In this document: positions 14,387 through 49,546 of the stretch, in pieces
Layout of the letters: the number at the start of each line of letters is the position of its first letter
Position numbering within the stretch: position 1 is the first letter of the stretch
Origin: Deltaproteobacteria bacterium
Lineage (GTDB): Bacteria; Desulfobacterota; WTBG01; CAIYCZ01; CAIRTM01
NCBI GenBank assembly: GCA_024276465.1
Contig: JAJRXD010000133.1
Span: forward strand, 1-64,000
DNA: 64,000 bases
Direction: 5' to 3'
The notes under the pieces: generated by a model
Databases searched by the model: none
Seen by the model: only the letters and a program-made list of their open reading frames with translations
What the model was told of the DNA's origin: nothing
Translations under genes and position numbers: made by a program

Positions 14387-14482
14387 ATATTTGGTAAATA
14401 CGCTCATATTTCGGGGTTTTGATCTTGTTTGCTTACTCCAGTGAAAATGTAACTTCGTTACTAATAGGATGCCCCGATTTTG

Positions 14483-14611
14483 AGACTGTGTCGCAATCAT
14501 GAATGAAGTGGGTAGCCGGCCCGCTTACGGGGCGTAACATATTGAAATTACATGGGCGCAAAAGCGCAAACTAAAGTTTGCGGCTGCCAAAAGCCTATTA
14601 TGACACAGTCT
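14483..14611. mobile_element. MITE-like element, family 2, copy A
   Basis: 129 bp with perfect 10-bp terminal inverted repeats AGACTGTGTC / GACACAGTCT. Internal palindromes include 'gcaaactaaagtttgc' and 'cccgcttacgggg'. The reverse complement recurs at 17641-17769 with the same length and roughly ten mismatches. Non-coding; a chance ORF covers part of it. Confidence 0.75.
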
Positions 14612-14642
14612 GTTCAGGGGTATATGTTAGCTTTTTGCGGGT

Positions 14643-16298
14643 TTATCTTCCCCAGGTTTTGCCCATCACAAGTTTATAAAAAGACTTTGCCTGAACAAGT
14701 ATATTTACAGTGTAGGATTCGATCTCTTTTACAATTTCCTGTTTTATAAAGGTCGATGAAACCTTCTCTAACTGCTCAAGCCTGACAGTTGTAAAAGAAA
14801 GATAGTCAAGCATTTTAGAAACAACAACCTCTTTGCTGTGCTCAACCTCGGCTGCCTGAATATTGTTAATTATTTCTTCAAGCGTATCTAATGATCCCTT
14901 CTGGGCGTCTTCACTCATGGAAGCTGAAAAATCAATATCTTTACCGTTTTCATCAAGTACAACTCTTTGAACACGTTTAAGCATTTTAAGATAGCTTGAC
15001 ATTTCTTCAACTCTTTGCCTGATATTGCGGAGGATATTCCGGTCGCTATATCCTTTCTGGCAATAATAAACCAGGGATCTTTTAATATCTGTCAGAGGTT
15101 TATACAAATTTTTGAGGGTGTTGCGGGAAAGAGCTCTTATTGCCTCTAATACTTTTTCCTGAATAACTCTTTCGGGGATACGATGTGACTTTTTCTCTCT
15201 CTTTTGCTCATGGGACTTTTCTATTGCAAAAAGCATGCTGTGGAGAATAGCCAGTTCCCCCAGGGTTTGTGGTTCTTCAACTGATATGAAGGGGTTCTCT
15301 TCATGCAAAATTTTGAAAATATTCACCCTTGGAAAAATAATCAGAAGCCTTAAGCCTGTATCAATCCTTTTACTGCTCACCAGAAAACAGGCAAGTTGTA
15401 CGTATTCATTAAAAAGAAGCTTCAGAAAAGAAAGTTCATCTCTGGTGAATTTTCTTTTCTGTACATTGCCAGGCGAACACAGCTTTGTCATCAGGCCCTT
15501 TTCTTCAATTGACAAATCAAAGCCCTTGTGGCGAATAAAATTCAGGGGGTCCGAAGGAGCATCAATTTTCAGAATACCTGATTTGATCGTATTATCAATA
15601 GCCGGCACAGCTAATATATTACATCTCAATGTATGTGTTCCTAAAAGTGAAACATAGCTGGCCTGTTCCATTCCAAGAGGGAGGCTTATAAAACTTGCCT
15701 CTTTTTCTCTTGCCATGAAAATGTGAAATGTTACGCCCTTCTCTTTCGGTGCAAGCGTTCCAGCTTCCCGTATGTCGCGGGCCAGGGTGTCGGCTGTTTC
15801 TTCGGCTGTGGATAAACTGGCCACTGTCAGGGCTTCCTCGAGAAGACGGCGCGTTTTCTTGATGGGATAAAACTTTTTGTCAAGACCAAAGGCAATGCTA
15901 AATCCCAGTTCAAGGGTTTGAAGCCTCTGAAAAATGAATTTTCTCTGAGCTATCTCTTTAAGACGATGTACAAAGACATCAAGAATATTGCCTATTACCG
16001 CCTCATGAATTTTCAACAGATTTCCTGTCGCCTGATCTGTTGCCATGGTAAGGATGAGCCCCTTTATCATTTCATTTACTGTTGCTTCCGGTGTGCCGTG
16101 CCGCATTCGGCCTTTATTAATAAAAATCACCTCTATTCTTTTGCCTTTGTACTTTATTTCAACATCTTCGGCAAAGTCTTCACTGTAAAACGATTTCTCC
16201 TTGCACCAAAGATCAGTTACCTCTCTGATAATAACCCTCTCTATTTGAAAGAGTCTTTTATATGATATGTTGGATGTTTTGATTTGTGCTAAATTCAT
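14643..16298 (-). CDS. Uncharacterised 551-aa cytoplasmic protein
   Basis: I do not recognise a family. No signal peptide or membrane segment. The N-terminal third ('IERVIIREVTDLWCKEKSF') is mixed alpha/beta; the middle holds a helix 'VIGNILDVFVHRLKEIAQRKFIFQRLQ' leading into a possible GAF-like sensor fold (weak, about 130-300); the C-terminal 170 residues are helical and may form coiled coils ('LRNIRQRVEEMSSYLKMLKRVQRV'). It could be a degenerate signalling protein, but no histidine kinase motifs are present. It lies between two inverted MITE-like elements, with a good minus-strand promoter upstream (16404-16431), and ends 32 bp from copy A. Confidence 0.7.
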   Translation of the reverse strand: MNLAQIKTSNISYKRLFQIERVIIREVTDLWCKEKSFYSEDFAEDVEIKYKGKRIEVIFINKGRMRHGTPEATVNEMIKGLILTMATDQATGNLLKIHEAVIGNILDVFVHRLKEIAQRKFIFQRLQTLELGFSIAFGLDKKFYPIKKTRRLLEEALTVASLSTAEETADTLARDIREAGTLAPKEKGVTFHIFMAREKEASFISLPLGMEQASYVSLLGTHTLRCNILAVPAIDNTIKSGILKIDAPSDPLNFIRHKGFDLSIEEKGLMTKLCSPGNVQKRKFTRDELSFLKLLFNEYVQLACFLVSSKRIDTGLRLLIIFPRVNIFKILHEENPFISVEEPQTLGELAILHSMLFAIEKSHEQKREKKSHRIPERVIQEKVLEAIRALSRNTLKNLYKPLTDIKRSLVYYCQKGYSDRNILRNIRQRVEEMSSYLKMLKRVQRVVLDENGKDIDFSASMSEDAQKGSLDTLEEIINNIQAAEVEHSKEVVVSKMLDYLSFTTVRLEQLEKVSSTFIKQEIVKEIESYTVNILVQAKSFYKLVMGKTWGR

Positions 16299-16403
16299 TT
16301 TTTACAAAGTCGTCACTTTTTACCGGTTCATATCCCTTCAAGGCCAATATGCTATTAAGGGAAAGTTCTAAAACGAAGCAGCATAGCTCCAGTTTTTCAC
16401 AGG

Positions 16404-16431
16404 AGTATATCTTATATAATTATTTTGACAA
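16404..16431 (-). promoter_or_regulatory. Promoter for the 551-aa protein gene
   Basis: Minus strand: -35 TTGTCA, 16-bp spacer, -10 TATACT, about 105 bp before the start at 16298. It belongs to a divergent control region (16299-16616, 318 bp) shared with the flavoprotein gene; no other gene is seen in that gap. Consensus match only. Confidence 0.45.
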
Positions 16432-16449
16432 ATCAATAATAAAAATTTA

Positions 16450-16479
16450 ATGACAATCAGTTCTTTATTTTTATATAAT
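16450..16479 (+). promoter_or_regulatory. Promoter for the flavoprotein gene
   Basis: Plus strand: -35 ATGACA, 18-bp spacer, perfect -10 TATAAT, about 140 bp before ATG 16617. Consensus match only. Confidence 0.4.
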
Positions 16480-16616
16480 AATCCAACCCCCCTGGCAAGC
16501 AACAGGCAACTGGAACAGTTAAACAGTATTAACAGGGGGCAAGCTGTTTTACATTAACGCTTTGATATTTCAAAGTGTCTGACAATGCTGCTGAAAAATT
16601 TTTACAGGAGGTTTTT

Positions 16617-17549
16617 ATGCAAAAGCTGAAATGGGAAAATAATTTAACAAAAAAAATAGACGGGCTGTGTGAAATATTCCCGGACGTGATTAAAAACAGA
16701 TGGAAAAACCGCCTGGTCTACAATTCCGAAAAAATTGCTGCTTATGAAAACTCAACCATTGTTACAGAGGATATATTCTGGAAATCTGTATATGAAGTCT
16801 TCCCGGGAGGATACGAACCTCTTATACTCAAGATAAAGGACCCGGCAAGACTGAAGGCTGATATGGAGTCTTCCCGAAACCAGGAAAATATGGAGCCTGG
16901 TACAGAACCGGTAAAAATCACACAGTGGTCTAAACAGCCTGATGTAGACTCAAGTGTGCCCAAGAACAAAAAAATACTTGCAGTAAACTCAAGTGCTCGA
17001 AAAGGGGGCAATACTGATATCATATTAGATGAGCTCCTGCGGGCCTGTGAGGACAACGGATCGACAATTGAAAAACTCCAGCTTTGTGATCTCAACATAA
17101 AACCATGTTCAGGCTGCAGGGCATGCCGCAAGGGGGATGTGAAAACAATATGTACTATCAGAGATGATATGTCCGCTGTTTATGAAAAGCTGTATGACAT
17201 GGACGGCTTTATAATGGGGTTTCCGATTTATACTGCAAGAGAAAACGGCATCATGGCAAATTTTATGGACCGCTGGGACTGTTTTGCGAACCCTCAGCTT
17301 ACGCGCAAATGGCCTGGCATGAAAAAAGGGATGGTTGTCTGCTCATGGATGTGGCCAAACACCACTGCATATGACAATATTGTGGAGAACATGGTCATTT
17401 TACTTAGGCTTCACAAGGTGCTCACAACAGATGTTCTTGTTATCACCGGGACACGAGGGAAAAAGCATGGCAGAGGTGTAGTAAAAAACCACCCGGAGAT
17501 TTTGAATACCGCATACCAGGCAGGAATTCAGTTTTTAAAAACCCTGTAA
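16617..17549 (+). CDS. Flavodoxin-family NAD(P)H-dependent FMN oxidoreductase with PCP_red-like N-domain
   Basis: 310 aa. Residues about 5-75 resemble the short PCP_red-type helical module ('WENNLTKKIDGLCEIFPDVI'...'VTEDIFWKSVYEVFP'). From about residue 122 follows an NADPH-dependent FMN reductase fold: 'ILAVNSSARKGGNTDIILDE' (phosphate loop for FMN), 'KPCSGCRACRKG' with Cys residues as in iron-sulfur flavoproteins, 'TIRDDMSAVYEKLYDMDGFI' and 'GFPIYTARENGIMANFMDRW'. Likely a cytoplasmic electron-transfer or quinone/iron reductase. Start set at ATG 16617 behind AGGAGG; the upstream GTG at 16575 in the same frame has no such site. Stands between the two family 2 MITE-like copies. Confidence 0.82.
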   Translation: MQKLKWENNLTKKIDGLCEIFPDVIKNRWKNRLVYNSEKIAAYENSTIVTEDIFWKSVYEVFPGGYEPLILKIKDPARLKADMESSRNQENMEPGTEPVKITQWSKQPDVDSSVPKNKKILAVNSSARKGGNTDIILDELLRACEDNGSTIEKLQLCDLNIKPCSGCRACRKGDVKTICTIRDDMSAVYEKLYDMDGFIMGFPIYTARENGIMANFMDRWDCFANPQLTRKWPGMKKGMVVCSWMWPNTTAYDNIVENMVILLRLHKVLTTDVLVITGTRGKKHGRGVVKNHPEILNTAYQAGIQFLKTL

Positions 17550-17640
17550 GAACAGATGAGCTGAGGCCAGAGGCCGAAAATCAAAGCTCCACAGTCCCGC
17601 ACGCCATAAACAGGATTCCCTTTTGCCTCCTTGCGCAAAG

Positions 17641-17769
17641 AGACTGTGTCATAATAGGCTTTTGGCAGCCGAAAACTTTAGTTTGCGCCTTTAGGCCTAT
17701 GCAATTTCAATATGTTACGCCCCGTAAGCGGGCCGGCTACCCACTTCATTCATAATTGCGACACAGTCT
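17641..17769. mobile_element. MITE-like element, family 2, copy B (inverted)
   Basis: 129 bp, inverted relative to the copy at 14483-14611, with the same perfect 10-bp terminal repeats and internal palindromes 'gcaaac..gtttgc' type and 'ccccgtaagcggg'. Occupies most of the gap between the flavoprotein and the histidine kinase gene. Confidence 0.75.
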
Positions 17770-17842
17770 CAAGGGCCGGGGTTTTCGACAACAATGCAAT
17801 AGATTGACATGATTTGACCGAATCATTGCTGGAGATAAAAAG

Positions 17843-25120: not shown

Positions 25121-25430
25121 TCTGATTCGTCATGCAAGGACAGAGAAACAAACAACGAAACAACCCCTCTGTTTCAGGAGATTGCTTTCCCGCCATGCTG
25201 GAATACCACCCTTCCAATGACAGAAAACAGTGATTACATGACTTTACGGTCAGATAATATAAAACTTAAAAATTATTTCAAAACATTGTTGTCCAAGAAC
25301 GAGATTGCCATCCCGATATTCATCGGGACAGGCGCCTCATGGCCTCGCAATGACAATGCAAAGCAAAATCAAACAGTTAATGTCATTACGAGGGAGGTAT
25401 CCCGCTACTGCGGGAAAGCAATCTCAACCT
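25121..25430. repeat. Repeat-filled gap with 'cgtcatt.cgagg' type elements
   Basis: Contains 'cgtcatgcaagg', 'gagattgcttt', 'cctcgcaatgacaatg' and 'gtcattacgagg', that is, several arms of the widespread 'tcattgcgagg / cgcaatga' intergenic repeat, also present at 49398-49520. Small hairpins such as 'atcccgatattcatcgggat' lie inside. A 135-codon frame across it (25097-25504) has no protein-like pattern and is not called as a gene. Confidence 0.55.
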
Positions 25431-49363: not shown

Positions 49364-49397
49364 CGTTGTGTCAAACTTGCAAAGACGCAACAAAGCT

Positions 49398-49520
49398 CGT
49401 CATTGCGAGGATCCACGATAAATCGGGACAGGCTCCAGCCACGGCAATCTTTTTGACAAAAAGCATAGAGATTGCTTCTCGGAGTTTATCCCGTTTTAAG
49501 TAACGGGGCTCGCAATGACA
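49398..49520. repeat. Dispersed 'cgtcattgcgagg ... cgcaatgaca' repeat
   Basis: Opens 'cgtcattgcgagg' and closes 'ctcgcaatgac', an inverted pair, with 'gagattgcttct' between. The same family is present in several pieces at 25121-25430. It fills the gap between the converging sigma factor and lgt genes. Confidence 0.6.
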
Positions 49521-49546
49521 TGCGACTTTCTATTGATGACAGTCTC

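Follow-up and report, generated by a model that had tools for sequence, protein, structure and literature searches.

Inverted repeats around two divergent genes

Two copies of a short repeat face each other across two genes in the window (the whole 64,000-nucleotide stretch of contig JAJRXD010000133.1 that was analyzed), and the question is whether repeats and genes moved together as one composite unit or whether the repeats inserted separately. The copies at 14483–14611 and 17641–17769 have, as initially claimed, equal length (129 bp), opposite orientation and perfect 10-bp ends; they are 94.6% identical, and the inverted arms of the pair measure 135 nt, with 94% complementarity and a spacing of 3023 nt. 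Both copies carry the end sequences AGACTGTGTC...GACACAGTCT; in copy 1, the left terminal repeat AGACTGTGTC occupies 14483–14492 on the plus strand and the right one 14602–14611 on the minus strand. The 129-bp core stands, but its boundaries were probably drawn one base short on each side, given that the flank statistics place one further terminal base, in most cases G or C, within the element. With this base included, copy 1 spans 14482–14612 on the plus strand and copy 2, inverted, 17640–17770 on the minus strand.

Inside the terminal repeats, each copy contains two inverted GTAG-type hairpins, that is, a REP pair. Hairpin A (a GTAG tag and a GC-rich stem-loop) lies at 14512–14534 (plus strand) in copy 1 and 17718–17740 (minus strand) in copy 2; hairpin B (a tag and a CGCAAAC stem-loop) lies at 14564–14587 (minus strand) and, with one stem mismatch, at 17665–17688 (plus strand). 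In the window, both hairpin B tags read GCAG; most of the 15 copies that were aligned have GTAG there. Within this alignment the two window copies are most closely related to each other, so local transposition probably produced one from the other, or else gene conversion keeps the two similar. The closeness of the pair is unremarkable: when 20 copies were placed randomly in 4.1 Mb, two fell within 3158 bp of each other in 25% of the simulations.

A multicopy family of miniature elements

The window repeats are not a chance resemblance, because a search of the genome with the 129-mer returned 25 BLAST matches (E-values from 4e-62 to 5e-4), 18 of which span at least 90 bp at 81–100% identity. 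The 15-bp end motif (up to one mismatch) occurs 32 times in this genome, compared with 6 hits for the reversed motif. The elements are shorter than 500 bp, multicopy and bounded by terminal inverted repeats, as expected of miniature inverted-repeat transposable elements (MITEs). At most 43 amino acids could be encoded in 129 bp, and no open reading frame (ORF) of at least 80 amino acids overlaps either window copy; two other copies are overlapped by ORFs of 99 and 85 amino acids, in a check that covered the copies of the window's genome. The original designation as MITE-like is thus borne out by copy number, terminal repeats, lack of room for a gene, a 3-bp target duplication and presence in several genomes.

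Target duplications next to the elements

Flank, duplication and folding tests were run on 55 of 56 elements (one, in L132, with a flank shorter than 20 bases, was omitted) from three groups: the window's own genome, the Clostridia-labelled metagenome-assembled genome G396 and other genomes of the phylum. A 3-bp duplication outside the extra terminal base is exact in 25 of the 55 elements and matches in at least two of three positions in 43; these elements were selected for recognizable ends, such that the shares apply to well-kept copies, and decayed copies with poor ends in the window's genome (L004, L015–L025) failed the end filter and lie outside the 55. Matching duplication bases amount to 30/45 in the own genome, 68/87 in G396 and 21/33 in the phylum (p ≤ 0.00015 for each against swapped flanks). 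In a grid of flank position pairs 1–8, a diagonal of three stands out, with values of 0.67, 0.73 and 0.76, the next highest being 0.49. A target without duplication was our first reading, when a test of the adjacent bases was negative; it was dropped once a one-base offset was allowed. The 55 elements are incompletely independent: one repeat family accounts for many of the sites in G396, and a single insertion may have given rise to a few of the elements, as L170 and L208 have their left flanks in common. In the window's genome, no more than 3 of the 15 elements have an exact duplication, and the two window copies are not among them, each matching in two of three bases: TTT at 14479–14481 and TTC at 14613–14615 around copy 1, and AAA at 17637–17639 and AAG at 17771–17773 around copy 2.

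Insertion sites in predicted hairpin loops

We rebuilt each insertion site by removing the element together with one duplicate. In 37 of the 55 rebuilt sites, all three target bases fall within a predicted hairpin loop, compared with 184 of 571 control windows; by group, the counts are 10/15, 20/29 and 7/11 for the own genome, G396 and the phylum, against 55/167, 92/286 and 37/118 in the controls. In the same order, the rebuilt sites have mean folding energies of -7.9, -7.6 and -16.8 kcal/mol, versus -4.9, -3.2 and -5.7 kcal/mol in neighboring windows, and mean z-scores against shuffled sequences of -1.0, -1.7 and -1.8. In the window's genome, the z-score falls below -1 at only 6 of the 15 rebuilt sites; the rebuilt site of copy 1 folds well (z = -2.25), whereas that of copy 2 does not (z = +0.68). 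Native left and right flanks pair little or no better than swapped ones (p = 0.04, 0.03 and 0.22, the first from a stem test without gaps at the offset that fits best), partly because flanks within one genome share similar arms.

Individual sites in G396 include unoccupied counterparts: a hairpin in L168 near position 1658 and the site rebuilt for the L167 element have an identical 25-base core, and a hairpin in L181 near 1659 differs by a single base. In L204, one element lies inside the loop of another element's GTAG hairpin, with TAAA repeated.

The same ends around different hairpins

The shell SAGACTGTGTCRYAAT, with different hairpins inside, recurs in the Clostridia-labelled G396 and, within the window's phylum, in eight further genomes. 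G396 contains 79 end motifs (15 bp, up to one mismatch) versus 0 in the control, and its 119-bp elements hold a REP pair between the same ends as those of the window, with different stems. Phylum-wide, a 20-mer end motif (up to one mismatch) was found in 12 of 395 genomes, the window's own included, and its reversed control scored 0 in every row. The shell is constant, and the enclosed hairpins vary among genomes. Eight genomes of the same family were searched, and the repeat was found in none of them (in two of them, scoring covered 15 of 16 and 15 of 32 candidates), nor did the phylum-wide 20-mer screen detect it in any of the eight. Searches of plasmids and phages with the 129-mer gave no match, as did a phage search with a 400-base stretch of L132, and viral contigs yielded no paired-end match.

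Separate insertions or a composite unit

Between the repeats lie, as reported in the preliminary description, two divergent genes, for a protein of unknown function and for a flavoprotein. The former (551 amino acids; 14643–16298, minus strand) has no Pfam or NCBIfam match and is conserved in the order; the latter, an FMN_red flavoprotein, occupies 16575–17549 on the plus strand, with an ATG at 16618 behind AGGAGG as the likelier start. The strong promoters attributed to these genes are only partly apparent: the intervening sequence has sigma-70-like matches of 11/12 and 10/12, but its three sites compare with 1.7 ± 1.3 in shuffled sequences.

The proposal that a single 3.3-kb block, comprising the two genes and the inverted MITEs, was transposed draws on the equal, inverted, closely similar copies enclosing exactly two genes, and on the location of both genes elsewhere in relatives where they could be placed. 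The 551-aa gene is present in all eight same-family and both same-order relatives searched (in two, as fragments at contig ends), adjoins a uvrC-like gene in five, and is surrounded in none of the ten by the window's neighbor genes; in the window, the order runs from a methyltransferase gene through the 551-aa and FMN_red genes to a histidine kinase gene. Close FMN_red orthologs occur in three of the eight same-family genomes, with weaker matches in others; in these three relatives, they reside on contigs other than that of the 551-aa gene, both genes lying deep inside long contigs in two cases, and on short contigs, where adjacency is possible, in the third. However, the position of the 551-aa gene varies also among relatives showing no such repeat, and the initial 7 kb of contig C8, on the downstream side of the uvrC-like gene, showed none. 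A composite transposition is expected to leave a single duplication around its outer ends, but the outer flanks match in none of three bases, compared with two of three across each copy, and the spacing of the pair is expected by chance (p = 0.25). With each copy bearing its own near-duplication, the idea of a passenger module is abandoned, and we regard joint transposition as extremely improbable; the two repeats look like separate insertions, and the enclosed genes like ordinary chromosomal ones with no sign of co-movement.

Mobilizing enzymes and alternative origins

A transposase with AGACTGTGTC ends, which the preliminary description had suggested seeking, was not found among the five families searched in this draft genome of 181 contigs. 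An IS110/IS1111 mobilizer was suggested by the palindromic targets and rejected, with PF02371 (IS110-type) missing from both the window's genome (G000) and G396; of the 11 genomes searched, 4 have it. No PF00872 gene occurs in G000, and no PF00665 gene in G000 or G396. Four PF01609 genes of the window's genome have no paired ends of the element type. At one PF01609 gene, L134, a lone GACACAGCCT precedes the ORF. Among long ORFs flanked by terminal inverted repeats, many loose pairs were seen, none transposase-like judging by ORF starts.

The outer repeats could instead be passengers of REPINs: the GTAG hairpins would be what moves, carried in single-stranded form by Y1 (RAYT) transposases. The element does have two inverted GTAG-tagged palindromes, the REPIN hallmark, the genome has 14 Y1_Tnp matches, and the truncated copies L019, L022 and L023 break at the edge of hairpin B. 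Yet none of the 14 loci has paired AGACTGTGTC ends (L117 and L118 each show a single end-like match, two bases of which differ), and the REPs of the element, which would be expected beside their own RAYT, were not found at these loci within up to 1.5 kb on each side; at about ten, the best flanking inverted repeat is of the GGG(G)TC/GGG(G)AC type. The constancy of the shell around hairpins that differ between genomes and the 3-bp duplication also argue against this origin, and to our knowledge such a duplication is not expected from HUH transposition. We consider REPIN-type movement unlikely. Less probable still is that the repeats are immobile DNA selected as structural RNA or as transcription terminators, for which the strong folding of the plus strand of the repeat (z = -3.5), the intergenic positions of the copies and four pairs with changes on both sides could speak. 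The target duplications and hairpin empty sites weigh against it, as do the lack of an Rfam match at gathering scores and the gene context of 18 copies, taken from longest-ORF calls (7 divergent, 3 convergent, 6 tandem and 2 at contig ends), which shows no preference for terminators and on which terminator-specific insertion was rejected.

The window repeats are, we conclude, likely to be separate insertions of a non-autonomous, REP-carrying, hairpin-seeking DNA transposon of the MITE kind. Sequence statistics give its ends as inverted S-AGACTGTGTCRYAAT, with S mostly C or G, around interior palindromes, here usually the inverted GTAG hairpin pair. A DDE-type transposase acting in trans would cut just outside the S base and, through a staggered cut of 3 bp, place the element in the loop of a palindromic repeat that is extruded or single-stranded. 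The outcome would be a palindrome inside a palindrome, itself a possible target; the 551-aa and FMN_red genes would merely lie between two such insertions.

Relation to known repeats

The element is a widespread MITE and a variant of a known bacterial kind. In the parts of the cited source that concern it, QMITE2 of Coxiella burnetii has 17–29-bp ends and duplications mostly of 7–9 bp (PMC5896051); the present element resembles it in being short and non-coding, in carrying a GTAG REP inside its terminal inverted repeats, in having direct repeats, and in truncated copies that look like bare REPs. Unlike QMITE2 as described there, it has 11–15-bp ends and a 3-bp duplication, its sites are hairpin loops, and its ends recur in several genomes around hairpins that change (PMC5896051). 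With REPINs, as portrayed in sections of PMC3733652, it shares a core of two inverted GTAG-tagged hairpins, but its REP pair is enclosed by ends of transposon type, a target duplication is present, and these REPs were found at none of the RAYT-like genes; the inverted repeats at the RAYT-like genes of the window's genome resemble the GGGGWSAS type of TIR-flanked RAYTs (PMC3733652). Insertion into palindromic repeats is also known, from the relevant portion of PMC1525189, for IS1397, ISKpn1, IS621, ISRm22 and others, which are coding IS elements targeting REPs, whereas the present element is non-coding and its targets include several types of hairpin repeat. The nesting of small repeats in one another recalls pneumococcal BOX, RUP and SPRITE clusters; the loop-centered, duplication-marked nesting seen here is not described for them in the pertinent passages of PMC10969869. 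Among the papers listed by a literature search for the end sequence, no title dealt with bacterial repeats, and further listings named these ends in no title or abstract opening.

These results bear on the spread of REP-type palindromes: the same ends surround different REP pairs in separate genomes, with a measurable 3-bp duplication in hairpin loops. We tentatively suggest that a single transposase across distant bacteria might read hairpins, inserting into loops while its ends capture palindromic repeats that lie between them. If so, MITE shells would ferry REP-type repeats, for which no mobilizer was found in these genomes, and would build nested palindromes, such that REP families would spread partly as MITE-shell cargo. 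This is a testable route, with the REP as cargo and the hairpin as landing site, and the end motif SAGACTGTGTCRYAAT can be used for finding the enzyme.

A REP pair inside transposon ends

The two 129-bp copies claimed in the preliminary description (copy 1, 14483-14611; copy 2, 17641-17769) are real, lie in opposite orientations and carry perfect AGACTGTGTC ends. Further copies are present in the genome (4.1 Mb, 181 contigs), with 25 matches to the 129-mer, 18 of which span at least 90 bp, and the mean column identity across an alignment of 15 copies is 87%. Among the pairs of aligned copies, the window pair is the closest, with 94.6% identity vs 86.8% for the next best pair and a median of 80.9%; with 20 copies placed at random, one simulation in four yields a pair spaced this closely.

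From left to right, the element consists of AGACTGTGTCRCAAT, a spacer, GTAG with a hairpin of the GTCCCGCTTACGGGGCG type (hairpin A), a spacer, a CGCAAACTRAAGTTTGCG hairpin (hairpin B), CTAC, a spacer and ATTNYGACACAGTCT. The CTAC after the second hairpin is GTAG on the opposite strand (this second tag is GCAG in copies 1 and 2), and the element is a REP pair inside transposon ends. Some loci of the same genome depart from this plan: L038 and L043 retain the ends, more or less decayed, around other palindromes; L021 differs on the right side; and L019, L022 and L023 are reduced to hairpin B plus the right end, with the break at the edge of hairpin B. In one family copy, a different small repeat, which has TGTYGTGTCAA ends, probably interrupts the GTAG, and CTAC is repeated there; the halves of this copy, L017 and L025, are on two contigs that both end within the insert and were joined by eye. 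A MITE-like repeat of the kind that probably interrupts this copy is found at window 49364-49545, with a TGTYGTGTCAA-type left end, TGTCATTGCGAG palindromes inside and a decayed right end. Separately, window 25300-25425 contains a BIME-like inverted pair of TGTCATTGCGAG-type repeats with no visible transposon ends.

Distribution of the ends

Neither the 129-mer nor the 20-base end was found in any of the 8 same-family genomes (for the 129-mer, 15 candidates were scored in each of two of them, out of 16 and 32, respectively). One scan of the GTDB contigs for the exact 20-base end pattern produced a single record, a Clostridia-labelled MAG (G396; 2.6 Mb) that contains 79 matches to the 15-base end, with 0 for the control. 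Inverted pairs are common among these matches and often measure 119 bp; of the pairs read, many enclose a GTAG REP pair, with stems (CGCAGGC, CGCAACC) unlike those in the window. Such GTAG hairpins in the examined stretches of G396 also occur without an end motif in the 60 bases upstream (10 of 20 among the matches listed). When up to one mismatch is allowed, the 20-mer is present in 12 of the 395 genomes of the window's phylum, the window's own included; 11 paired elements of 127-242 bp, with different inner palindromes, were recovered from 8 of the others, and no pair passed in the remaining 3.

Target duplication and hairpin landing sites

A first test detected no duplication in the bases directly adjoining the ends. 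The base before the end is G or C in 31 of 32 flanks, with pyrimidines farther out. An extra terminal base followed by a triplet duplication was first suggested by eye, from the G396 flanks and then from those of the window's genome, and was then tested on 55 elements with recognisable ends (15 from the window's genome, 29 from G396 and 11 from the phylum). At offset 1 and length 3, the flanks are 72% identical, vs 34% when flanks are exchanged between elements of one genome group, and this combination stands out among the 15 offsets and lengths compared; the next, at 52% vs 29%, is a 5-base window containing the triplet. The position grid has a diagonal three cells long (0.67, 0.73, 0.76), with the next highest cell at 0.49, and the matched bases give p <= 0.00015 in each of the three groups alone. 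Triplets are exact in 3/15, 18/29 and 4/11 elements (own genome, G396 and phylum, respectively) and match in at least two of three bases in 13/15, 23/29 and 7/11.

When the landing site is rebuilt by collapsing the element and one triplet, the rebuilt sites fold better than their own shuffles (z < -1) in 6/15, 21/29 and 7/11 cases in the same three groups. The triplet lies wholly within a hairpin loop of the rebuilt site in 10/15, 20/29 and 7/11 cases vs 55/167, 92/286 and 37/118 control windows. Copies of a GTCATTCCTGC...GCAGGAATCT hairpin repeat account for many of the landing sites in G396, and an unoccupied copy (L168) shares an identical 25-base core with the site rebuilt for the L167 element; at L204, one element lies within the GTAG hairpin loop of another. 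The hairpin at the site of copy 1 is fair (z -2.25), and that at the site of copy 2 is poor (z +0.68).

The 3-kb block

Movement of the two enclosed genes as one unit, as previously proposed, is unsupported by the flanks of copies 1 and 2. The gene pair reached its present location through rearrangement of an ordinary kind or in some way that left no trace. The gene for the 551-aa protein (14643-16298, minus strand) occurs once each in 8/8 same-family and 2/2 same-order relatives (fragments in G005 and G010) and is absent from the remaining 47 of the 57 relatives searched. Around it, the stretches analysed in the ten relatives, several of which are short, contain none of the window's neighbour genes; L071 has one weak kinase-domain match at a distance of 8 kb. 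Five relatives carry it in convergent orientation to a uvrC-like gene, which judging by its sequence is probably uvrC. In the window's genome, the uvrC-like gene is in pieces on three contigs; on contig C8, its downstream neighbour is different, and no repeat was found in the first 7 kb of that contig. Just upstream of one uvrC-like piece, there is an IS-like element (C178, 1666-2169) that encodes a DDE_Tnp_1 transposase and has inverted repeats of sequence GAGTCTGTCGGACT.

Close orthologues (59-69%) of the FMN_red flavoprotein gene (16575-17549, plus strand) are present in three relatives, on contigs other than the one with the 551-aa gene. One or the other gene lies far from contig ends in G004 and G003; in G001, the separate contigs are short, and adjacency is possible. 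The 551-aa protein itself is the product of an uncharacterised lineage gene. Within the limits applied, it matches nothing in Pfam or NCBIfam (sub-threshold hits only, E up to 0.1), and its PDB matches are all weak, a histidine kinase being the best at E 0.0014.

Candidate mover and relation to known elements

Fixed ends together with a 3-bp duplication suggest that a DDE transposase moves the element. Among the five transposase families searched for, the window's genome contains 4 genes of PF01609, none with paired ends of this element's type, and no gene of PF00872, PF02371 or PF00665. IS copies are often lost from draft assemblies. PF01797 has 14 genes; these Y1/RAYT-like genes (L107-L118) are flanked in about 10 of 14 cases by GGG(G)TC or GGG(G)AC-type inverted repeats, resembling the TIRtrons of PMC3733652.

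The nearest published relatives found are, in build, QMITE2 of Coxiella, a MITE with a GTAG REP (PMC5896051); in core, REPINs (PMC3733652); and in target choice, REP-targeting IS elements (PMC1525189). In the passages of these papers that were consulted, no element was found that combines one set of ends common to separate genomes with palindromic cargo that varies and a triplet duplicated in hairpin loops. We class the element as a variant of MITE rather than as a REPIN because none of the 14 RAYT-like genes was found to be flanked by these REPs.
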